A stretch of DNA of 64,000 nt from Aliarcobacter butzleri. GTDB lineage: Bacteria; Campylobacterota; Campylobacteria; Campylobacterales; Arcobacteraceae. The notes under the pieces were generated by a model, which saw only the letters and a list, made by a program, of their open reading frames with translations, made no database searches and was not told the DNA's origin. Location: assembly GCF_900187115.1 (NCBI RefSeq), contig NZ_LT906455.1, positions 2,232,001 to 2,296,000 on the forward strand, read 5' to 3'. Below are positions 19,041-32,121 of this stretch, one piece after another (positions within the stretch are counted from its first letter, which is position 1; each line of letters begins with the position of its first letter). A program made the translations under genes and the position numbers.

Positions 19041-21152
<2,112 letters not shown>

Positions 21153-21160
<8 letters not shown>

Positions 21161-21851
21161 ATGTGTAGCCATAATTCCAGCTCGAGGTGGAAGTAAACGA
21201 ATTCCTAAAAAAAATATAAAAAACTTTCATGGAAAACCGCTTATTGCTTATAGTATTGAAGTTGCATTAAAATCTAAACTTTTTGATAAAGTAGTAGTTT
21301 CAACTGATGATGAAGAAATTGCAAAAATTGCAAAAGAGTTTGGAGCAGAAGTTCCTTTTTTACGACCAAAAGAGTTAAGTGATGACTTTACAGGAACTGG
21401 TGCAGTTATAAATCATGCTATTAATTTTTTAAAAGAACAAGGAGAAAATATAGATTTTGTTTGCACTATTTATGCAACTGCTCCACTTTTACAAGAGAAA
21501 TATCTAATAAAAGCCTATGAAAGACTCAAAGACTCAAATGCTAAAAATGCTTTTTCTTGTACTTCGATGCCATTTCCAATTCAAAGAACTTTTAAAATAA
21601 CATCAAATGAAAGATGTGAGATGTTTTGGCCAGAAAATTTTATGAAACGTAGTCAAGACCTAGAAGAAGCTTTTCAAGATGCGGGACAATTTTACTGGAC
21701 GAATTTAAATATAAAATCAGATGAAATCACATTTGGTAAAGATAGTATTCCAATAATATTACCAAGATATTTAGTTCAAGATATAGATACTTTAGAAGAT
21801 TGGCAAAGAGCTGAATTTATGTATGAAGCTATTAAAAGGAGTGAATTTTGA
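21153..21851 (+). CDS. pseF: Pseudaminic acid cytidylyltransferase
   Basis: 232 aa CMP-nonulosonate synthetase. It begins VAIIPARGGSKRIPKKNIKNF, the nucleotide-binding motif of the family, followed by HGKPLIAYSIEVA and VVVSTDDEEIA. It activates pseudaminic acid with CTP to give the CMP-sugar used by the flagellin transferase. Distinguished from NeuA-type enzymes by its place among pse genes and PseF-like length. Overlaps pseC by 8 nt and pseI by 4 nt. Confidence 0.92.
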
Positions 21852-22873
21852 AAATTGGAAAATTTGATTTACAAAAAGATGGAACATTCATCATTGCTGA
21901 ACTTAGTGCAAACCATAATGGAAGTTTACAAACAGCTTTGGATTCAATTAAAGCAGCTAAAGAGTGTGGAGCAAATGCAATAAAACTTCAAACATATACA
22001 GCTGATACATTAACATTAAATAGCCGAAATGAAGACTTTATGATAAGTGGTGGAACTTTATGGGATGGAAGAAATCTTTATGAACTATATCAAGAGGCTT
22101 ATACTCCTTGGGAATGGCATAAAGAACTTTTTGATTATGCAAGAAGTTTAAATATTGATATTTTTTCAACTCCATTTGATAAAACTGCTGTTGATTTTTT
22201 AGAAACACTCAATCCAACTGCATATAAAATTGCATCTTTTGAAATAACTGACTATGAATTGGTTCGATACACTGCAAGTAAACAAAAACCAATTATCATT
22301 AGTACTGGTATTGCAACTATTGATGAAATTCAAGATGTTGTTAATATCTGTAAAAGTGTTGGAAATGAAAATATTATTCTTCTAAAATGTACAAGTGAAT
22401 ATCCAGCACCACTAAATGAAGCAAACTTGAAAACTATTTCAAATATGAAAGAAACTTTTGGTGTTGAAGTTGGATTTTCTGATCATACATTAGGAATTGT
22501 TGCACCAGTAGTTGCAGTGACTTTAGGAGCAAAAGTTATAGAAAAGCATTTTATTATAGATAAATCTATTGGTGGAGCTGATTGTGGATTTTCTATGGAT
22601 AAAAAAGAGTTTAAACAAATGGTAGAAGCTATAAAAGATGCTGAAAAATTAATTGGAGTTGTTGATTATAGTTTAAATGAGAAAAGAAAAAAACAAAGAA
22701 GATTTGCAAGAAGTTTATATATAAATTCTGATATAAAAAAAGGTGAAGTTTTTACTCTTGAAAATATAAAAAGTGTAAGACCTTTTTATGGACTTCATCC
22801 TAAATACTTAAATGATATTTTAGGAAAAGTTGCAAAAAAAGATTACAAATTTGCAGATAGATTAGAACAATGA
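21848..22873 (+). CDS. pseI: Pseudaminic acid synthase
   Basis: 341 aa NeuB-family enzyme that condenses 6-deoxy-AltdiNAc with phosphoenolpyruvate. TIM-barrel domain with IIAELSANHNGSLQ, IKLQTYTADTLTL and GFSDHTLGI, then a C-terminal SAF antifreeze-like domain (about residues 285-341: RRFARSLYINSDIKKGEVFT). The SGGTLWDGRNLYELYQ loop is typical of PseI as opposed to sialic or legionaminic synthases. Start is TTG at 21848 with AAGGAG 6 nt before; it overlaps the pseF stop by 4 nt. Confidence 0.93.
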   Translation: MKIGKFDLQKDGTFIIAELSANHNGSLQTALDSIKAAKECGANAIKLQTYTADTLTLNSRNEDFMISGGTLWDGRNLYELYQEAYTPWEWHKELFDYARSLNIDIFSTPFDKTAVDFLETLNPTAYKIASFEITDYELVRYTASKQKPIIISTGIATIDEIQDVVNICKSVGNENIILLKCTSEYPAPLNEANLKTISNMKETFGVEVGFSDHTLGIVAPVVAVTLGAKVIEKHFIIDKSIGGADCGFSMDKKEFKQMVEAIKDAEKLIGVVDYSLNEKRKKQRRFARSLYINSDIKKGEVFTLENIKSVRPFYGLHPKYLNDILGKVAKKDYKFADRLEQ

Positions 22874-23892
22874 ATAACAAAAAAATTCTAGTCATTACAG
22901 AAGGAGGTAAAACTTTAGGCTTTGGGCATATTACAAGAACTATTTCCATTTGTACTATTTTTGCTTCTTTTGGATATGAAATAGAATATATAATAAATGG
23001 TGATTCTTCAATAGATAACATAATGAACTATCCTTATCAAATTTTTGATTGGCAAACTGAACAATCAAGATTAGAAGAAAATTTAAAAAATAAGTCTTTG
23101 ATACTTTTAGACTCCATTTTAGTAAAAGATAATCAAATAAAAAAAATTGAATCTTTTAATATACCAATTATATTTATTGATGATGAGAAACAAAGAAACA
23201 TTTTAAATAAAGGATTTGTTGTTGATTGGACAATATTGAGAGAAAAAGAAAACTCATTTGAAAATAGAAAAGAAAATGTTAAATATCTTTTAGGAAGTAA
23301 ATATATACCATTAAGAAAAGAGTTTTATAAAGAAAATATCCAAAATATTATCAAAGAAAATGTATCTAAAATTATGATAACTTTTGGTGGTTCAGATGTT
23401 AGAAACTTAACACCTAAGATTTTAGAAATTTTGAATATAAACTTCCCAAATATCAAAAGAGATGTGATTATTGGTCCTGGCTTTAATAATTTAGAAGAGA
23501 TAAAAAGGCACTCAAATAATGCTAATATAAATCTAATAACAAATGCATCTACAGAACAAATGATTGAGTCAATGAGAACATCTGATATAGCTATTGCAGC
23601 AGGTGGACAAACCTTATATGAGTTAGCTCACATAGGAACACCAACAATAGGAATTTTATTAGTTGAGAATGCAAAAGCAGATACCATGGGATGGTCAAAA
23701 GTAGGATTTTTAAACTATATTGGTACATATTGCGATTTACATTTAGAAGAGAAACTAATAACTGCAATTAAAAGCTTATTAACACAAGAAAATAGATTAA
23801 AAGCTCAAGAAAATGCTCATAAATATATTAGTAAAAATGGTGGTCAAATGTTAGTAAAAGAGATTTTGGAAAGCTTAAATGATAATATTTGA
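22870..23892 (+). CDS. pseG: UDP-2,4-diacetamido-trideoxy-altrose hydrolase
   Basis: 340 aa GT-B-fold protein that removes UDP from the sugar nucleotide before PseI acts. Features are the N-terminal GFGHITRT with the catalytic His, LILLDS, FIDDEKQRN, IMITFGGSD and the UDP-binding AAGGQTLYELAHIGTP. It is somewhat longer than many PseG proteins. ATG overlaps the pseI stop; its 3' end overlaps the next gene by 14 nt. Confidence 0.9.
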   Translation: MNNKKILVITEGGKTLGFGHITRTISICTIFASFGYEIEYIINGDSSIDNIMNYPYQIFDWQTEQSRLEENLKNKSLILLDSILVKDNQIKKIESFNIPIIFIDDEKQRNILNKGFVVDWTILREKENSFENRKENVKYLLGSKYIPLRKEFYKENIQNIIKENVSKIMITFGGSDVRNLTPKILEILNINFPNIKRDVIIGPGFNNLEEIKRHSNNANINLITNASTEQMIESMRTSDIAIAAGGQTLYELAHIGTPTIGILLVENAKADTMGWSKVGFLNYIGTYCDLHLEEKLITAIKSLLTQENRLKAQENAHKYISKNGGQMLVKEILESLNDNI

Positions 23893-24742
23893 AGATAGAG
23901 CAGCAACAGTTTTATATAAAACATTAAAAAGTTTGAAAAATAAAAATAAATTTTTATTACCTTTAAATATCTGTCCGATTGTACCAGATACATTTATTAA
24001 AGCTAATATAAATTTTGAATTTATTGATATCAATCTTAAAACTTTATGTATGGATGAAAATATTGTTTTAGAAAAAATAAAAAAAGATAAAAATATTGAT
24101 GGTATTTTATTTGTTAAAACTTTTGGAATAAATATTAATACAGAGGATTTTTTTAAAAATATAAAATCTATAAATAACAATATATTTATCATAAATGATA
24201 TGTGTCCATCAATTCAACAATTTGATATAAACATTGAAGAAACAGTTGCCGATATGGTTTTATTTAGTTCAGGTTATTCTAAATATGTTGATATTGGTTA
24301 TGGTGGATATGGTTTTTTAAAAGGACATTCTTTCTCAAATATTTTTGAAGACAAAACAAAAGATACTGATTTTTTAGAATATAAAAATAAAATATTGACT
24401 CAAATACCTATTATGCAAAAACATAAAAGTGAATTAAACAGCATCTATATAAATAATTTACCTAAAGATATTTTTTTAGGAGAAGAATTTAATAATTGGA
24501 GATTCTCTATTTTAGTTGATAACAAAGAAAAAATATTAGATGATATTTTTAAAATAGAAGGACTATTTGCTAGTAGTCATTATCCTCAAGTAGATTATAA
24601 TTATTCATCAAATCCAATTAAAAATTCAAATGCACAAAAAATCCATAACCGCATAATTAATCTTTTTAATGATTTTAGATTTAATAAAGAAAAAGCTTAT
24701 AAAGTTACAGATATAATAAATAAGAATTTAATAAAGGTTTAG
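23879..24742 (+). CDS. Short DegT-type aminotransferase-like protein in the pse operon
   Basis: 287 aa with a fold resembling DegT/DnrJ/EryC1 sugar aminotransferases but about 90 residues shorter. The PLP-ring Asp (IINDMCPSI) and Schiff-base Lys (FSSGYSKYVDIGYGGYGFL, near residue 138) are recognisable. The N-terminal substrate loop and VSNGTAAL motif are replaced by FEDRAATVLYKTL, and the C-terminal small domain is reduced. It could be an active divergent transaminase or have lost activity. It overlaps pseG by 14 nt and opens a set of non-pse genes in the operon. Not a standard pse gene; role unknown. Confidence 0.6.
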   Translation: MIIFEDRAATVLYKTLKSLKNKNKFLLPLNICPIVPDTFIKANINFEFIDINLKTLCMDENIVLEKIKKDKNIDGILFVKTFGININTEDFFKNIKSINNNIFIINDMCPSIQQFDINIEETVADMVLFSSGYSKYVDIGYGGYGFLKGHSFSNIFEDKTKDTDFLEYKNKILTQIPIMQKHKSELNSIYINNLPKDIFLGEEFNNWRFSILVDNKEKILDDIFKIEGLFASSHYPQVDYNYSSNPIKNSNAQKIHNRIINLFNDFRFNKEKAYKVTDIINKNLIKV

Positions 24743-24744
24743 TG

Positions 24745-25410
24745 ATGAGTATCCAAAATATCCAAGGACTTAAATTTCCTGATGAATATTTCATAAAATT
24801 CTTTTTTAAATATAAACTACATACTCAAAAAAATCTTACTTACTTAGAATTAGGATGTTCTAATGGTTGCAATCTAAATTTACCTTATCAATATAACAAC
24901 AATGTTATAGGAGTAGATTTTAATAGTGAACTTATTAAATTTGCCAAAGAAAATTTTATAAATCTCAAACAAGAAGAAGAATATCAATTTTATAATGATG
25001 ATATGAGAAAATTCTGTAATAACAATAAAAACATAAATGCTGATGTATTAGTTCTTCCAAATTCTATTTATTATATTCCTAAAAATGATTTCATAAAACT
25101 TCTAAAAGATATTAAAGTAAATAATCTAATAAAAGAAGAGATTCCTTTTTTTATTAGATTTAGAGAAATCGATGACTTTAGAAATCATAAAGGAACAAAA
25201 ATTGAAGAGAATAGTTATATCTTAGAAAATGGTATTACAGGAGAAGATGGAGCTTTTTGTAAATTTTATACTAAACAAGAAATAGTAGATTTATTAGAAA
25301 AAGAACTTAATCTAAGAGATTTTCAAACTATGTCAATAAAGTATGAAAATATCCAAAATGGTGTAAAAGTAAATAATAGTGATGTTGTTATTTGGGGAAC
25401 TATAAATTAA
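24745..25410 (+). CDS. Class I SAM-dependent methyltransferase in glycan tailoring cassette
   Basis: 221 aa. Motif I is YLELGCSNGCNLNL followed by NNVIGVDFNSELIKFAKE (acidic SAM-ribose ligand), then DADVLVLPNSIYYIP-type strand IV. The ATG at 24745 lies 7 nt after an AAAGG and is preferred over the GTG at 24742. It ends in a one-base overlap (TAATG) with the ATP-grasp gene. Its position suggests O- or N-methylation of the flagellar nonulosonic acid or its substituent; acceptor unknown. Confidence 0.7.
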   Translation: MSIQNIQGLKFPDEYFIKFFFKYKLHTQKNLTYLELGCSNGCNLNLPYQYNNNVIGVDFNSELIKFAKENFINLKQEEEYQFYNDDMRKFCNNNKNINADVLVLPNSIYYIPKNDFIKLLKDIKVNNLIKEEIPFFIRFREIDDFRNHKGTKIEENSYILENGITGEDGAFCKFYTKQEIVDLLEKELNLRDFQTMSIKYENIQNGVKVNNSDVVIWGTIN

Positions 25411-26513
25411 TGAGAAAAGTTTTTATTCTCGGAGGAAGTCAGCTTCAAATGGATTTAATCCTTGAAGCAAAAAAAATGTTTTTTTATACAATTGTTTTAG
25501 ATGGAGATAAAAATTGTATAGGTTCAAAATGGTGTGATGAATTTTTACATATAGACTTCTCAAATAAAGAACTTGTATTAGAAAAAGCATTAGAATATAA
25601 AATAGACATGATTTTAACTAGTGCTACAGAACTTGGAAATGTTTCAGCTTGTTATGTTGGTGAAGCTATGGGATTAAATACAAATACCTACGAAACAGCT
25701 CTTTTAACAACAAACAAACTTTTGATGAAAGAAACTCTTGTTAGATCTTCTATACCAACAGCAAACTACAAAATAGAATCAGTTTCAAATTTTAAAGAGC
25801 CACAAAACTTTCCAATAATCATAAAACCAATAGATAGTTCAGGAGGAAGAGGTTTAAGTTTTGTTAATTCAAAAGAAGAATTAAATCAAGCTATTAAAAA
25901 GATTTCTAAATATTCAAAAGAAGAAAAATTCTTAGTTGAAGAATATATTCAAGGTGAACAGTATAGTATTGAAACTATTAGTTGCAAGGGTCACCACTCT
26001 ATCATTGCAATTACACATGAATTTTTTAGAGAAGTACCAAATATTATAGAAAAAAAACATTATATTCCTGCAAGTTTAAATACTAATTTGAAAGAACGCA
26101 TTTCAAAAATAGTTGAAAATATTTTGAATAGTTTTAAAATAAAATTTGGTGCTTGTCATATAGAACTAAAAATCACAAGTAATAATGAAATTTATATAAT
26201 AGAATTAGCAAGTAGAACTGGTGGTATGAGAACTGAGATGATAAACTTATCTTATGGTATAAACTTTTCGCAATTATTACTACTATCTTCTTTAGGAGTA
26301 GAATTTAAAAATAAAATAGAACCTTCAAGAGGTGTTTGGTGTAAATTTATAGTTGATACAAACATGTTTGAAGAGTATTTAGAAGATAAAAATAAAAAGA
26401 ATATTATAATCTTTGAACCAAACCAGATTTCTAATATAAAACAAGATTTTATGGCAAATAATCTACACGAAAGCCTTGGATATTATTATGTAATTGGAGA
26501 AGAATATTTATGA
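25410..26513 (+). CDS. ATP-grasp ligase in glycan tailoring cassette
   Basis: 367 aa from the ATG at 25410. Pre-ATP-grasp Rossmann domain (KVFILGGSQLQMDLILEAKK), then the ATP-grasp fold with IIKPIDSSGGRG, VEEYIQGEQYSIE and the metal-binding CHIELKIT...YIIELASRTGGMR. Related enzymes join a carboxylate to an amine through an acyl phosphate (for example D-Ala ligases and amino-acid ligases). In a nonulosonic acid operon it may attach an amino acid to a sugar amine. It is coupled to both neighbours by 1-4 nt overlaps. Family is firm, reaction is inferred. Confidence 0.75.
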   Translation: MRKVFILGGSQLQMDLILEAKKMFFYTIVLDGDKNCIGSKWCDEFLHIDFSNKELVLEKALEYKIDMILTSATELGNVSACYVGEAMGLNTNTYETALLTTNKLLMKETLVRSSIPTANYKIESVSNFKEPQNFPIIIKPIDSSGGRGLSFVNSKEELNQAIKKISKYSKEEKFLVEEYIQGEQYSIETISCKGHHSIIAITHEFFREVPNIIEKKHYIPASLNTNLKERISKIVENILNSFKIKFGACHIELKITSNNEIYIIELASRTGGMRTEMINLSYGINFSQLLLLSSLGVEFKNKIEPSRGVWCKFIVDTNMFEEYLEDKNKKNIIIFEPNQISNIKQDFMANNLHESLGYYYVIGEEYL

Positions 26514-27382
26514 AAAATGTAATTATATTTGGTACTGGAGAGTTTGCTAAAAATATCTATAATCAGTACAAAAATGACTTAAATATTATTAACTTTTCTG
26601 ACAATAATAAAGATAAACATAACACTTTATTTTTCGAAAAACTTGTTGTTGCACCAAAAGATTTAATATCTATGGACTTTGATGAAATAATCATTGCAAG
26701 TTCTTATTCTGAAGAGATATATCAACAACTTGTTGAAGATTTAAATTTGGATAAAAATAAAATAAGAAGATTATATGTAAATGAATCAAAAGTTCAATTT
26801 TACTCAAAAGAAAAAGTTGAAAAATCTGAATATTTTATGTTTGAAATTTGTAAACTATTAGAAGAAAATCATATTAGTTATTATATAGATCACGGTACAT
26901 TATTAGGAATTATTAGAGATGAAGCTCTAATTCCTTGGGATAAAGATATAGATTTTGCAGTTCTTATTGAAGATAAAGAAAAAATAGAAACTATGCTAAA
27001 ATCTTATTTAAATAATTTTATTCATCCTCTTTGTAAAACTAATAATTGGAAATATAAAATAGAAAAAGAAGAGATTATAGTAGAGGGAATAAAAGAAACT
27101 TTATTTATTGAATTACAAATATTTAATGATTCAATTTTTAAAGAAGATGAAGTAGCCTTAGACTTGATGTTTCGTTATAAAAGAGACTCAATAATTTATT
27201 GGGGTGTTTGTGGTAAATATTTAAAAGCTCCAATTAATATTTGTTTCCCAACAAGTCAAATTGTTTACAAAAATCATTCTATTAATGTTCCAAATGACAA
27301 AATAGCATATTTAAGTAATTTATATGGCGATTGGCAAAAACCAATCAAAAACTGGACTTACGACAAATACAACAATCTATAA
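26510..27382 (+). CDS. PglD_N-like domain fused to LicD-family transferase
   Basis: 290 aa. Residues 1-95 form a Rossmann-like unit (NVIIFGTGEFAKNIYNQY, FDEIIIASSYSEEIYQQL) like the N-terminal domain of PglD acetyltransferases, but no hexapeptide repeats follow. Residues about 105-290 are a LicD/nucleotidyltransferase-type domain with DHGTLLGIIRDEALIPWDKD, the expected G-x-x-R and W-D-x-D-x-D metal site. LicD proteins add phosphocholine or similar phosphodiesters to glycans. ATG overlaps the preceding stop (ATGA). It is the clearest sign of a phospho-substituent on the flagellar sugar. Confidence 0.7.
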   Translation: MKNVIIFGTGEFAKNIYNQYKNDLNIINFSDNNKDKHNTLFFEKLVVAPKDLISMDFDEIIIASSYSEEIYQQLVEDLNLDKNKIRRLYVNESKVQFYSKEKVEKSEYFMFEICKLLEENHISYYIDHGTLLGIIRDEALIPWDKDIDFAVLIEDKEKIETMLKSYLNNFIHPLCKTNNWKYKIEKEEIIVEGIKETLFIELQIFNDSIFKEDEVALDLMFRYKRDSIIYWGVCGKYLKAPINICFPTSQIVYKNHSINVPNDKIAYLSNLYGDWQKPIKNWTYDKYNNL

Positions 27383-27402
27383 CAAAAAAGGAAATATACA
27401 AA

Positions 27403-28023
27403 ATGACTGATTATTGGAATACATACTATAAGACAAAAAAGAAACAAATTACTGTACCTTCTCAATTTGCAGCTTTTGCAATACAAGAATTTGGTAATCA
27501 AGAAGATACGATAATCATTGATTTAGGTTGTGGAGATGGAAGAGATAGCTATTTTTTCAGCTCTCATGGATTTCAAACTATTGGTATAGATGGTTCTTTA
27601 GAGGCTATAAATAATTGTAAACAAAATTTCAACCATGATTTATTGGACTTCTTTTGTTATGATATTGAAGAACAATCACTTTACGAAAAAATCAAAGAAA
27701 TAATAACTTCACAAAATAAAAAGCTAGTTTTTTATTCTAGATTCTTTCTACATGCTATAAACGATAATCAACAAAATATCCTTTTAAATAGCCTAAAAAA
27801 AATAAAAGACAATGAATCTCTTTGCTTTTTTGAATTTAGAACAAATAGAGATGAATTTCAAGAAAAAACAACTTCAACTCATTATAGAAGATACATATCT
27901 CCGACTAAATTCACATCTGATATAATGAAAATTGGATTTGATGTTTTATATTTTACCGAAGGATTCGGTTATGCAAAATATAAAAATGATGATGCACATG
28001 TTGCTAGATTTATTTGTAAATAA
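27403..28023 (+). CDS. Class I SAM-dependent methyltransferase, second in cassette
   Basis: 206 aa from the ATG at 27403, which has AAAAGGA before it; the longer in-frame form would overlap the LicD gene. It begins MTDYWNTYYKTKKKQITVPSQFA, then motif I IIIDLGCGDGRDSYFFSSHG and GIDGSLEAINNCKQ. The N-terminal WNxYY...PSxFA pattern is often seen in methyltransferases of surface-polysaccharide clusters. It lies 20 nt after the LicD gene and 14 nt before maf. Acceptor unknown; probably the flagellar sugar. Confidence 0.72.
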   Translation: MTDYWNTYYKTKKKQITVPSQFAAFAIQEFGNQEDTIIIDLGCGDGRDSYFFSSHGFQTIGIDGSLEAINNCKQNFNHDLLDFFCYDIEEQSLYEKIKEIITSQNKKLVFYSRFFLHAINDNQQNILLNSLKKIKDNESLCFFEFRTNRDEFQEKTTSTHYRRYISPTKFTSDIMKIGFDVLYFTEGFGYAKYKNDDAHVARFICK

Positions 28024-28037
28024 ATTGTTGTTAAAAT

Positions 28038-30068
28038 ATGACTGAAGCACAAATACAATTACAAAATGCGCTAACAACAACTTTTTTAGCAAATCTAGTT
28101 TTTCTTAGTGAGTATGATAGAAATTTATATCATAGAGTAGATGAGCTATCAAGAATGATAGAAAATGGAACTTATCAAGAAAAATATGCTCTAGAATTTC
28201 TTATGGAAAATGGTGAATTTGACATATATGATATAGTAAATGACAAATATCTATATAACAAAAATCCAAAAAAATTCAATGATGAGTTAATAAATAAAGT
28301 AAATTTTGATGAGAAACAATCTATCTTTGAAATACAGCCATATTTTGCTATGAAAAATCCACCTAAAATAGATTATGAAAAAAGATTTGAATTAGAAGAG
28401 TTAAATGATTTAAATAATCTTACACTTAAAGATGTTCAAGATTATACAAGTTTTACCAAAGAATATTTAGAAAAAAGAGAAAATAAAAAATTTAAGAAAA
28501 TTGATAAATTTATATTTTTAGGAACACTATTAGGAAGACATATCCCTAAAATTGCAAAAAAAATTAATGCTAGTTCATACTTGATTTTAGAAAGAAATTT
28601 AGAAATTTTTAGACTCTCTTTATTTACTGTTGATTATACAATTCTTGCAAAAAATGGTGCTGTTTTTTCTATCATGGACAGTGTACAAGATGAAGAAAAG
28701 AAGATTTATACATACTTAGATGCATATAGAATAGATAACTATCTTTTAAAATTATCAATAACAAATGTAAATATAAGTAGTTATATAGATACAATACTAA
28801 ATTTACTTCACACGATGAATCCAATGGCATATGATTATAATAGAAGAATATATATTCATACAAATAGAACAACTAAAAGACTTCAAGAAAACTATAAATT
28901 TCTAAATCTTAGAAGTATAAGAAATAACTCAAAATTATTTGATGAAAAACCAATTTTATATATAGCTGCTGGTCCATCTTTGGATGAAAATTTAGACTGG
29001 ATAAAAGAAAATCAAAATAAATTCTTTATAGTATGTATAGGAAGGTCATTAAGAAAATTATTAGATAATAATATCAGAGTAGATATTGTAACAACTCTTG
29101 ATGAACAAGGTTTTTTAGCAGAAACACAATTTGATGATGAAACTATGAAGAAAATGAGTAAAGATACAATAATCTTTGCAGGTTCAATAACAAATGAAAA
29201 TTTATTAAAAAAATTTCCAAAAAAGAATTTATATCTTTTTGAAGTATTTTACCCTTTATACAAAGGCAATATATCTTATGGTGGATTTAGTATTGGAGAA
29301 ATTACTCTTGAAATGCTTTATAGTTTTAATCCTAAAGAGATATTTATCGTAGGTTTGGATTTAGCTCTAAACCAAAAAACTGGTGCTACTCATTCAAATG
29401 AAGATAGAGTTAGAGTAAGAAAATTAAATTTAGAAAAAGAAGATAATAGAAGTAAATTTGAAGCAAGAGAAAGCCTAATAAAAGTTAAAGGAAACTTTAA
29501 AAAAGTAGTTTACACAACTCCTTTATTTTATGGTTCTATAAAAATAGTAGAAGATAAATTAAAAAGAAAAAACAAATCTACAAAAGTATATAATTTAGCA
29601 GAAAATGGTGCTAAATTCTTAGGAATAGCGGCAAAAAAAGCAGATAAAATCGATTTAACGAAATATAAAATCTATGATAACTTTGAAATATCAAACTTTA
29701 TTGATTCAAACTCTTTTGACTCTTTGGATAATATTTCTAAAGAAGCTATCAAAAAAGAATTAGACTATATAAAAAAAGAGTTGAATCTTACTCTAAAAAA
29801 TGTCGAAAAAAGTGATAAAGTTTTATATATAGGATTTTTAAAAGAGATTGAAAATGTTATTTTAGAACTTGATAAAAATAATTTTTTAAATATTCATCAA
29901 ATAGTTAATTTATATTGTGAAGCATATCTACCTTATTTATCATACTATTTTAATGACAAAAAAATAAAAGCTGAAATAAAAAAAGTAAAAGCTATAAAAA
30001 AGATATTTTTAAAACAACTAAAAAATATAATTGAAGACTATAAGACTTGTTTAGAAAGAGTTATTTAA
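28038..30068 (+). CDS. maf: Maf-family motility accessory factor / flagellin nonulosonic acid transferase
   Basis: 676 aa. The N-terminal 200 residues are Maf-specific, the middle (about 305-480) is the DUF115/MptE-like core (LYIAAGPSLDENLDWIKEN, DIVTTLDEQGF, FIVGLDLALNQKTGATHS), and the C-terminal part is helical. Maf proteins transfer CMP-activated pseudaminic or legionaminic acid to Ser/Thr of flagellin in the cytoplasm before export. It is the last gene of the pse operon and faces the two flagellin genes, so substrate synthesis, transfer and acceptor are side by side. Confidence 0.87.
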   Translation: MTEAQIQLQNALTTTFLANLVFLSEYDRNLYHRVDELSRMIENGTYQEKYALEFLMENGEFDIYDIVNDKYLYNKNPKKFNDELINKVNFDEKQSIFEIQPYFAMKNPPKIDYEKRFELEELNDLNNLTLKDVQDYTSFTKEYLEKRENKKFKKIDKFIFLGTLLGRHIPKIAKKINASSYLILERNLEIFRLSLFTVDYTILAKNGAVFSIMDSVQDEEKKIYTYLDAYRIDNYLLKLSITNVNISSYIDTILNLLHTMNPMAYDYNRRIYIHTNRTTKRLQENYKFLNLRSIRNNSKLFDEKPILYIAAGPSLDENLDWIKENQNKFFIVCIGRSLRKLLDNNIRVDIVTTLDEQGFLAETQFDDETMKKMSKDTIIFAGSITNENLLKKFPKKNLYLFEVFYPLYKGNISYGGFSIGEITLEMLYSFNPKEIFIVGLDLALNQKTGATHSNEDRVRVRKLNLEKEDNRSKFEARESLIKVKGNFKKVVYTTPLFYGSIKIVEDKLKRKNKSTKVYNLAENGAKFLGIAAKKADKIDLTKYKIYDNFEISNFIDSNSFDSLDNISKEAIKKELDYIKKELNLTLKNVEKSDKVLYIGFLKEIENVILELDKNNFLNIHQIVNLYCEAYLPYLSYYFNDKKIKAEIKKVKAIKKIFLKQLKNIIEDYKTCLERVI

Positions 30069-30114: not shown

Positions 30115-31038
30115 TTATTGAAGTAATTTTAGAACGTTTTGTTGAACCGCATTAGCTTGGCTAATTGCATATGATCCCGCTTGAGAAATGATATTCAATT
30201 TATTAAAGTTTGCAGATTCTTGTGCATAATCAACATCTCTAATAACTGACTCAGCATTTTTAATATTAGTTGCTTGAGTAGATAAGTTTCTAATAGCTGA
30301 TTCAATTTGGTTTTGAGTAGAACCGATATCCCCTCTATATCCATTCAGCGTTGTAATAGCTTTATCAATCGCTTTTTGTCCAGATTGAGCCATAGTTCTT
30401 GTAAATACTCCAGTTGTACCAGCAGTTGCACCAGCTGACATTTTAGCACCACTTCTTACAGCTTTTGCAAGAGCAGATAATTTAAGACCAGCAACATTAG
30501 AGTTGATAGTTTTAGTTGTAATTAAATCGGAACTTCCTTCACCAACTTGGAAAGACAATCCACCTTTTGCAGTTCTTGCAGCAGTAAGATTATCCATATT
30601 AGATGCATCAGCAGTTGTTCTAGCATTTTGTAAAAGGTTAGTACCATTATAGTTAGTTTGCTCACCAATATTATTTAATTGTTGTAACAATTTTGTAATA
30701 TCTTTTGCAATAGCCGTTCTACCTGCAACTGAAGTTGTATCAGTATTTGCTTGAATTAACTTAGCTTTAATTGTATCAAGAATACTTGATTGCTCAGCCA
30801 TTGATTTATCTGTAATTTGCAAAAGAGCAACTGCAGAGTTACCATTTGCAATACCTTGATTAATCGAAGTAGCTTGAGTTCTTAATTTATCTGCAATCGC
30901 AAGACCAGAAGCATCATCTGCTGCTTTATTTACTCTCAATCCTGTAGAAAGTTTTTCCAACGAGTTCGTTATCGATTTATTCGTATTTGAAGCTGCTTCT
31001 TGAGCTGTTAAAGATGATACATTTGTATTGATTTTCAT
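30115..31038 (-). CDS. Flagellin (second copy)
   Basis: 307 aa filament protein with conserved N-terminal (INTNVSSLTAQEAA, LSTGLRVNKAADDASGLAIA) and C-terminal (GDIGSTQNQIESAIRNL, AQESANFNKLNIISQAGSYA, QQNVLKLLQ) D0/D1 domains. There is almost no variable D2/D3 insert, so the filament is thin-shelled compared with E. coli FliC (498 aa). The segment normally seen by Toll-like receptor 5 (LQRVREL in Salmonella) reads LDTIKAKL, as in other immune-evading Campylobacterota. No signal peptide, as expected. About 30 of 307 residues differ from the tandem copy upstream. RBS AAGGGA. Confidence 0.94.
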   Translation of the reverse strand: MKINTNVSSLTAQEAASNTNKSITNSLEKLSTGLRVNKAADDASGLAIADKLRTQATSINQGIANGNSAVALLQITDKSMAEQSSILDTIKAKLIQANTDTTSVAGRTAIAKDITKLLQQLNNIGEQTNYNGTNLLQNARTTADASNMDNLTAARTAKGGLSFQVGEGSSDLITTKTINSNVAGLKLSALAKAVRSGAKMSAGATAGTTGVFTRTMAQSGQKAIDKAITTLNGYRGDIGSTQNQIESAIRNLSTQATNIKNAESVIRDVDYAQESANFNKLNIISQAGSYAISQANAVQQNVLKLLQ

Positions 31039-31197: not shown

Positions 31198-32121
31198 CTA
31201 CTGAAGTAGTCTTAAAACATTTTGTTGAGTAGAGTTAGCTTGACTAATTGCGTATGACCCTGCTTGTGCAATAATATTTAATTTATTGTAGTTTGCAGAT
31301 TCTTGTGCGTAATCAACGTCTCTAATTGTAGACTCAGCATTTTTAATATTAGTTGCTTGAGTTGTTAAGTTTCTAATAGCTGATTCAACTTGGTTTTGAG
31401 TAGAACCGATATCCCCTCTATATCCATTTAGAATTGAAATAGCTGTATCAATCGCTTTTTGCCCAGATTGAGCCATAGTTCTCGTAAATACCCCAGTTGT
31501 ACCAGCAGTTGCACCAGCTGACATTTTACCACCACTTCTTACAGCTTTTGCAAGAGCAGATAATTTAAGACCAGCAACATTAGAGTTGATAGTTTTAGTT
31601 TTGATTAAATCTTGAGTACCTTCTCCAATTTGGAAAGATAATCCACCTAATGCAGTTCTTGCAGCAGTAAGGTTTCCTTCTGTTGAAGCATTTGCAGTTG
31701 TTCTAGCATTTTGTAAAAGGTTAGTACCATTATAGTTAGTTTGCTCACCAATATTATTTAATTGTTGTAACAATTTTGTAATATCTTTTGCAATAGCCGT
31801 TCTACCTGCAACTGAAGTTGTATCAGTATTTGCTTGAATTAATTTAGATTTAATTGTATCAAGAATAGTTGATTGCTCAGCCATTGATTTATCTGTAATT
31901 TGCAAAAGAGCAACTGCAGAGTTACCGTTTGAAATACCTTGATTAATTGAAGTAGCTTGAGTTCTTAATTTATCTGCAATCGCAAGACCAGAAGCATCAT
32001 CTGCTGCTTTATTAATTCTTAAACCAGTAGAAAGTTTTTCTAATGAAGTAGAAATATTTTTATTTGTATTTACCGCTGCTTCTTGAGCTGTTAAAGATGA
32101 TACGTTTGTATTAATTCTCAT
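31198..32121 (-). CDS. Flagellin (first copy)
   Basis: 307 aa. Same architecture as the tandem paralogue: D0/D1 N-terminal half (RINTNVSSLTAQEAA, LRINKAADDASGLAIADK), short serine/threonine-rich middle with likely O-glycosylation sites (about residues 140-230, including SAGATAGTTGVFTRT), and C-terminal half ending QQNVLRLLQ. It is preceded by a 120-nt leader with several possible hairpins and an AAAAGGA RBS. It has its own terminator. A central 149-bp stretch is identical in DNA to the other copy while the ends differ at many silent sites. Confidence 0.94.
   Translation of the reverse strand: MRINTNVSSLTAQEAAVNTNKNISTSLEKLSTGLRINKAADDASGLAIADKLRTQATSINQGISNGNSAVALLQITDKSMAEQSTILDTIKSKLIQANTDTTSVAGRTAIAKDITKLLQQLNNIGEQTNYNGTNLLQNARTTANASTEGNLTAARTALGGLSFQIGEGTQDLIKTKTINSNVAGLKLSALAKAVRSGGKMSAGATAGTTGVFTRTMAQSGQKAIDTAISILNGYRGDIGSTQNQVESAIRNLTTQATNIKNAESTIRDVDYAQESANYNKLNIIAQAGSYAISQANSTQQNVLRLLQ

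Follow-up and report, generated by a model that had tools for sequence, protein, structure and literature searches.

What does an ATP-grasp enzyme do in an operon that makes pseudaminate for the flagellum? The question is raised by a gene of Aliarcobacter butzleri (25410–26513, forward strand) located in the analysed window, a stretch of 64,000 nucleotides. The initial annotation had proposed that the encoded protein may be an amino-acid ligase acting on a nonulosonic acid.

Organisation of the locus

The gene was confirmed to be intact: it starts with ATG, encodes 367 amino acids and contains no internal stop codon. An in-frame TTG at 25392 is an alternative start which would add six residues. 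The ATG overlaps by one base with the stop of the upstream SAM methyltransferase gene MT1 (24742–25410), and the stop by four bases with the ATG of the downstream LicD gene (26510–27382). As consecutive genes overlap at every junction between pseB (19041) and the LicD gene, the overlaps measuring 1 to 14 bases, the translational coupling to glycan genes that had been proposed earlier is a fair reading.

The genes are arranged in the order pseB-C-F-I-G, DegT-like, methyltransferase, ATP-grasp, LicD, methyltransferase and maf, all on the forward strand, with two adjoining flagellin genes. Four proteins passed the curated NCBIfam cut-offs: the inverting UDP-GlcNAc 4,6-dehydratase PseB (19041–20033; TIGR03589, 567.9 bits, cut-off 407.75), the aminotransferase PseC, which delivers the UDP-4-amino sugar proposed here as acceptor (20030–21160; TIGR03588, 457.1 bits, cut-off 423.5), the CMP-pseudaminate synthetase PseF (21153–21851; TIGR03584, 343.4 bits, cut-off 205.7) and the pseudaminate synthase PseI (21848–22873; TIGR03586, 515.5 bits, cut-off 340.25). 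The UDP-sugar hydrolase PseG (22870–23892; TIGR03590, 147.7 bits, cut-off 153.55) fell marginally short. It is followed by a DegT-like PLP protein with a sugar-aminotransferase fold (23879–24742) and by MT1 (Pfam Methyltransf_31), which has orthologues in other pseudaminate loci. Downstream of the ATP-grasp gene, a LicD-family phosphotransferase (Pfam LicD, 1.5e-15) with a NeuD/PglD-like N-terminal part is encoded, then a second SAM methyltransferase, MT2 (27400–28023; Methyltransf_31; upstream TTG start possible at 27331), and the Maf flagellin nonulosonyltransferase (28038–30068; MptE-like, 2.3e-36, and Maf_flag10_N). Both flagellin genes (30115–31038 and 31198–32121; Flagellin_N and Flagellin_C) lie on the reverse strand.

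Fold and active site of the ATP-grasp protein

The protein matched Pfam ATP-grasp_4 (PF13535) with an E-value of 6.1e-26 and displays the features of the ATP-grasp superfamily, namely the ATP-binding lysines, the Mg-binding acidic residues and the catalytic arginine. The active site (K103, K139, E177, H250, E252, E265 and R269) is complete, as first noted in the initial annotation, and invariant in 13 orthologues. No curated NCBIfam family reached its cut-off. The scores obtained with the models for PurK (66.2, cut-off 318.4), PurT (46.6, cut-off 502), PurD (38.7, cut-off 288), CPSaseII (44.7, cut-off 1027), Ddl and PylC were far under the respective cut-offs, so that no purine or peptide enzyme emerged as a clear best match. 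The curated model for L-amino-acid ligases, NF053745 (BacD), also stayed below its cut-off (33.8 bits, cut-off 850).

A profile of the 13 orthologues gave as best PDB matches 4dim, a structural-genomics entry named phosphoribosylglycinamide synthetase, followed by the L-amino-acid ligases 3vot (BL00235) and BacD, with RizA slightly lower. An AlphaFold model built from a 23-sequence alignment (pLDDT 90.4, pTM 0.88) was closest to 3vot in Foldseek (TM 0.81 on query), then to 4dim, PurT, BacD, PurK and RizA. LegX, named in the initial annotation for a structural comparison, is a nucleotidyltransferase and does not belong to the ATP-grasp enzymes. PurT and PurK matched the model nearly as closely as the L-amino-acid ligases, and on this predicted structure the two groups are not separable by fold alone.

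The window ligase shares a common fold and an ATP-grasp_4 core with BL00235 (3VOT), BacD/YwfE (3VMM) and RizA (4WD3), while it differs from them by an identity of about 19%, a distinct C-terminal domain, its sugar-operon context and the proposed amine acceptor, a UDP-sugar. In the alignment with BacD, the Mg ligands E252 and E265, as well as R269, H250 and E74, correspond to E311, E324, R328, H309 and E109, and M273 to W332; the numbering was fixed with the help of 3wo1, an entry for the W332A mutant that is part of the alignment. Glu109 of BacD presumably binds the donor amino acid through its amino group. All 13 orthologues have Glu at position 74, where all 10 paralogues have Asp. Trp332 has been described as a key residue of the substrate pocket of BacD (PMC6920838). 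At position 273, the window clade has Met and the others have Trp or Leu. This comparison favours an amino-acid donor, short of proof, and the donor of the window clade is perhaps bulkier. Profile and structure matches, together with the conserved synteny and the PseH fusion presented below, support the assignment of the protein as a carboxylate-amine ligase of the L-amino-acid-ligase type in pseudaminate biosynthesis. This part of the initial proposal stands, with an amino acid as a candidate for the acyl group.

Orthologues and gene fusions in relatives

Full-length orthologues with 38–60% identity were identified in about a dozen of 397 genomes of the same class, forming a clade with a tree support of 100/99. 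All those found sit in pseudaminate loci, which argues that the placement in the operon is not due to chance. One genome (G166) displays the exact window order pseB-C-F-I-G, DegT-like, MT1, ATP-grasp and LicD, including an orthologue of the LicD protein. When the whole collection was scanned with the ATP-grasp protein, a single match was obtained, on a Methylococcaceae contig (L057) where a trio of PseG, DegT-like and ATP-grasp genes lies beside pse genes. The same contig carries an ordinary PseG adjoining a formyltransferase. As the window-type PseG is found there by the ligase and the ordinary one by the formyltransferase, the former seems to be dedicated to the ligase as its partner.

Two Campylobacter-like genomes (G106 and G139) encode a single protein of 531–532 amino acids with PseH in front and the ligase behind, as confirmed by the Pfam GNAT and ATP-grasp domains, and in two others (G255 and G352) PseG, PseH, formyltransferase and ligase are neighbours. 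The label Campylobacter-like is based on gene content together with placement in the family. Six genomes of this kind carry both PseH and the ligase, which therefore does not replace PseH in every case.

The ligase gene contains a poly-G tract of 9–10 bases in three Campylobacter-like genomes (G307, G174 and G232). Such a tract is also present in a phase-variable ATP-grasp gene of C. fetus that is listed in PMC6321876. Tracts within ligase genes were located at L083:10267, L086:9615 and L087:16333 and 17558, and the second ligase copy of G232 is also interrupted by a stop. Copies consisting only of the C-terminal part, from about residue 133, lie directly upstream of the full copy at L083:9102–9857 and L086:8432–9202. 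Also adjoining the ligase is a CDP-alcohol phosphatidyltransferase fused to a methyltransferase (L083:11024–12316).

Absence of PseH and survey of PseI loci

PseH was not found in the complete genome of A. butzleri (2.35 Mb, one contig), in which the best GNAT protein scored 28 bits for a cut-off of 93.1. A Pse-type formyltransferase was not found in this genome either, the only match being Fmt-like, and in the operon the gap is not filled by a NeuD-type acetyltransferase. Weak left-handed-helix matches are present elsewhere in the genome and may act in trans. The absence of PseH, which had been missed in the initial annotation, is the best clue to the acceptor of the ligase.

In order to sample loci by PseI and not by the ligase, the PseI-positive genomes among 89 Arcobacteraceae (36 genomes, 37 loci) were selected, and up to 20 kb around each pseI was scored for gene content. 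Four loci on truncated contigs were left out. Among the 33 remaining loci, six carried an ATP-grasp gene without PseH, none carried both, 20 had PseH only and seven had neither; in the six ATP-grasp loci the gene adjoins pseG. The mutual exclusion gave a Fisher p of 0.0015 over the 33 loci and was not significant after phylogenetic pairing, as the PseI tree yielded 2 to 3 concordant and no discordant independent pairs (p 0.25), too few for significance. On this tree the ligase distribution needs four changes, and the exclusion rests on about four independent gains. Two PseH-positive genomes (G003 and G027) have ATP-grasp paralogues at distances of 15 and 24 kb from pseI; being outside of the pse operon, these were not counted. 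Two of the six ATP-grasp loci (G428 and G010) carry a paralogue-type protein with about 26% identity, and the first of these loci also encodes a weak GNAT (38.6 bits).

In three of the seven loci with neither gene (G020, G310 and G247), an ArnA/Fmt-like sugar-type formyltransferase adjoins pseG, from which an N-formyl pseudaminate is predicted. Formyltransferase genes adjoining pseG in PseH-less loci were located at L125:8195–8824, L127:11989–12618 and L131:10500–11141. Four PseH-less loci showed neither ATP-grasp nor formyltransferase in the 20 kb examined; a PseH-like GNAT (63 bits) was detected in the locus of G447 and a formyltransferase 23 kb from the locus in G434. A natural formyltransferase::PseH fusion of 366 amino acids is encoded in another Arcobacteraceae pse locus (G012; L128:6440–7537, reverse strand), which suggests that formyl and acetyl are alternatives on one amine. 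Given the exclusion between PseH and ATP-grasp, the pseG-adjacent formyltransferases and the natural fusions, N-acylation of the UDP-4-amino sugar looks like a modular slot filled by an acetyltransferase, a formyltransferase or a ligase, which is the simplest reading.

Divergent PseG and accessory genes

The window PseG and its same-clade orthologues obtained low scores (147.7, 143 and 141), compared with 225–240 in the PseH and formyltransferase loci tested, while the catalytic GxGHxxR motif was kept in the window protein according to the alignment. From these sequences, the divergence is consistent with a hydrolase adapted to a different N4 substituent. PseI of the window operon is not divergent. 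In a genome whose ligase has Trp at position 273 (G420), PseG is of the ordinary kind (218 bits), which would fit a smaller acyl group in that genome.

Among the loci read, the DegT-like gene was found only alongside ligases of the Met273 clade. Its product keeps the PLP lysine K135 and D107 in the alignment, and KabA and PseC were among the best Foldseek matches. The window copy is about 38 amino acids shorter than its orthologues, with the gap close after the PLP lysine, and stayed below the Pfam DegT cut-off, which the orthologue of G166 passed. As these residues are missing and the model is poor around K135, the window copy may be weakened. A plain duplicate of pseC was rejected in view of an identity of about 19% to the window PseC and the lack of a Pfam match at the cut-off.

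Homologues of MT1 occur in formyltransferase loci without ATP-grasp; since MT1 is not tied to ligase loci, N-methylation of an amino acid by this enzyme was not deduced. For the LicD-family protein (26510–27382), a gene for the donor is not evident in the flagellar operon. Phosphonate-type genes lie near the pse locus in three cases (L078:4258–7764, L082:14263–15570 and L086:11958–13262), with a PEP mutase fused to a cytidylyltransferase, judged for L086 by size and position alone. Those of L078 also include a TPP enzyme and an Fe-ADH. They hint at a phosphonate decoration of the flagellar glycan in these genomes.

Proposed role of the ligase

Taken on balance, we favour, with modest confidence, that the ligase performs the N-acylation of pseudaminate in place of PseH, preferably with an amino acid, giving Pse5Ac7-acyl. 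Where most bacteria place a plain acetyl group, the enzyme probably joins a small acid to the sugar, and this acid may be an amino acid. ATP would phosphorylate the carboxylate of the donor, and the nucleophile that reacts with the acyl phosphate would be the free 4-amine of UDP-4-amino-4,6-dideoxy-beta-L-AltNAc, the product of PseB and PseC. We infer that this 4-amine, the later N7 of pseudaminate, is the acceptor. PseG, adapted to the new substituent, would take off UDP, PseI would add pyruvate and PseF CMP, and the resulting CMP-Pse5Ac7-acyl would allow Maf to move Pse5Ac7-acyl onto flagellin. Candidates for making or decorating the acyl group or the sugar are one or both methyltransferases, the DegT-like PLP protein and LicD. 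PseH itself (TIGR03585, the N-acetyltransferase for UDP-4-amino-4,6-dideoxy-AltNAc) shares the proposed acceptor, pathway step and slot, and is fused to the ligase in two relatives, whereas it is a GNAT-fold protein using acetyl-CoA, has no sequence relation to the ligase and is missing from A. butzleri.

Several flagellar glycans offer parallels. A methylated amino or glyceric acid is amide-linked to a nonulosonate in Leg5GluNMe7Ac of C. botulinum (PMC5207245) and in the C. jejuni pseudaminate bearing 2,3-di-O-methylglyceroyl (PMC3068675), in both cases at C5 and not at C7 as proposed here. Glycine and N-acetylglutamine have been reported as ester-linked on pseudaminate. In C. difficile, an ATP-grasp gene (CDR20291_0245, PF13535) lies in the locus for a flagellin glycan with amide-linked amino acids; that glycan contains no nonulosonate, and the acceptor would be Fuc3N. 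The nearest biological parallel, by analogy, is S. oneidensis, in which no clear PseH is present, the nonulosonate is mono-N-acetylated (274 Da) and bears a nitrogen-free group of 236 Da with 0–2 methyls, and loss of the ATP-grasp gene sfmE, required for full flagellin modification, leads to an intermediate flagellin mass (PMC3765264). SfmE (SO_3265) is the product of an ATP-grasp_4 gene accompanied by a methyltransferase in a flagellin nonulosonate operon; unlike in the window, no clear orthologues of PseG, PseI and PseF occur in that species. Since flagellar aminoacyl-nonulosonates and sfmE were already known, the new chemistry for flagella announced in the initial annotation was overstated. 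The new part is the proposed role of the ligase as a replacement for PseH. A literature search, which covered few subscription papers, gave no ATP-grasp enzyme that has been characterised with a nonulosonate precursor or a sugar nucleotide as substrate.

The S. oneidensis case makes a hydroxy acid a serious alternative donor at the same acylation step. A non-amino-acid donor, be it a hydroxy acid, a methylated polyhydroxy acid or formate, would also agree with the di-O-methylglyceroyl group of C. jejuni and with the presence of the formate-using PurT among the top folds. It competes with the preferred reading on the donor only, and we consider it a substantial though somewhat doubtful option, as L-amino-acid ligases were the best profile and fold matches, E74 is invariant at the amino-group site of BacD and a PLP enzyme accompanies the ligase in the window clade; for formate in particular, dedicated formyltransferases already serve formyl in sister loci. 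It is rather unlikely that the ligase acts later or elsewhere, at N5 after deacetylation or at another position of pseudaminate or CMP-pseudaminate, with an unrecognised enzyme providing the N7 acetyl. The known amino-acid and glyceroyl groups at C5 and the methyltransferases in the operon speak for it, as do the Campylobacter-like genomes in which PseH, formyltransferase and ligase occur together, so that the ligase there must add something beyond the PseH acetyl. However, Pfam detected no Cj1295-like deacylase in the window operon, neither PseH nor a Pse-type formyltransferase is present for N7, and the slot adjoining pseG is that of the N4-acylation genes.

That the ligase forms its amide elsewhere in the flagellar glycan, on a different sugar or on a small molecule such as a cap handled by LicD, appears improbable. 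LicD and phosphonate genes do occur in some loci, and the type B flagellin of C. difficile combines an Ala-Gly-taurine cap with an ATP-grasp gene, but the orthologues accompany pse genes and not any particular glycosyltransferase, and both the fusion to PseH and the exclusion of PseH speak against this reading. The resemblance to PurK, PurT and PurD at superfamily level could finally suggest a housekeeping purine or peptide enzyme placed in the operon by chance. With all such curated families far under their cut-offs, four further ATP-grasp matches elsewhere in the A. butzleri genome and orthologues confined to pseudaminate loci, this is extremely improbable, and a purine or Ddl paralogue was rejected on the curated cut-offs.

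Significance

A broader view, which we hold tentatively, is that the ligase family replaced PseH several times and joins an amino acid straight to the UDP-4-amino sugar to give flagellar Pse5Ac7-aminoacyl, and that N-acylation is a cassette in which acetyltransferase, formyltransferase and amino-acid ligase can be exchanged, with phase variation in some relatives of Campylobacter. The N-acyl groups of nonulosonates set the antigenic surface of the flagellum, and host lectins as well as phages recognise them. If the proposed role is true, the exchange of acetyl for an amino-acid-like group by a ligase would account for the completion of pseudaminate in species devoid of PseH, and an ATP-grasp family that had been left unassigned would obtain a function. 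Gene content would then predict the flagellar glycan, with PseH indicating acetyl, a formyltransferase formyl and an ATP-grasp enzyme another acyl group.
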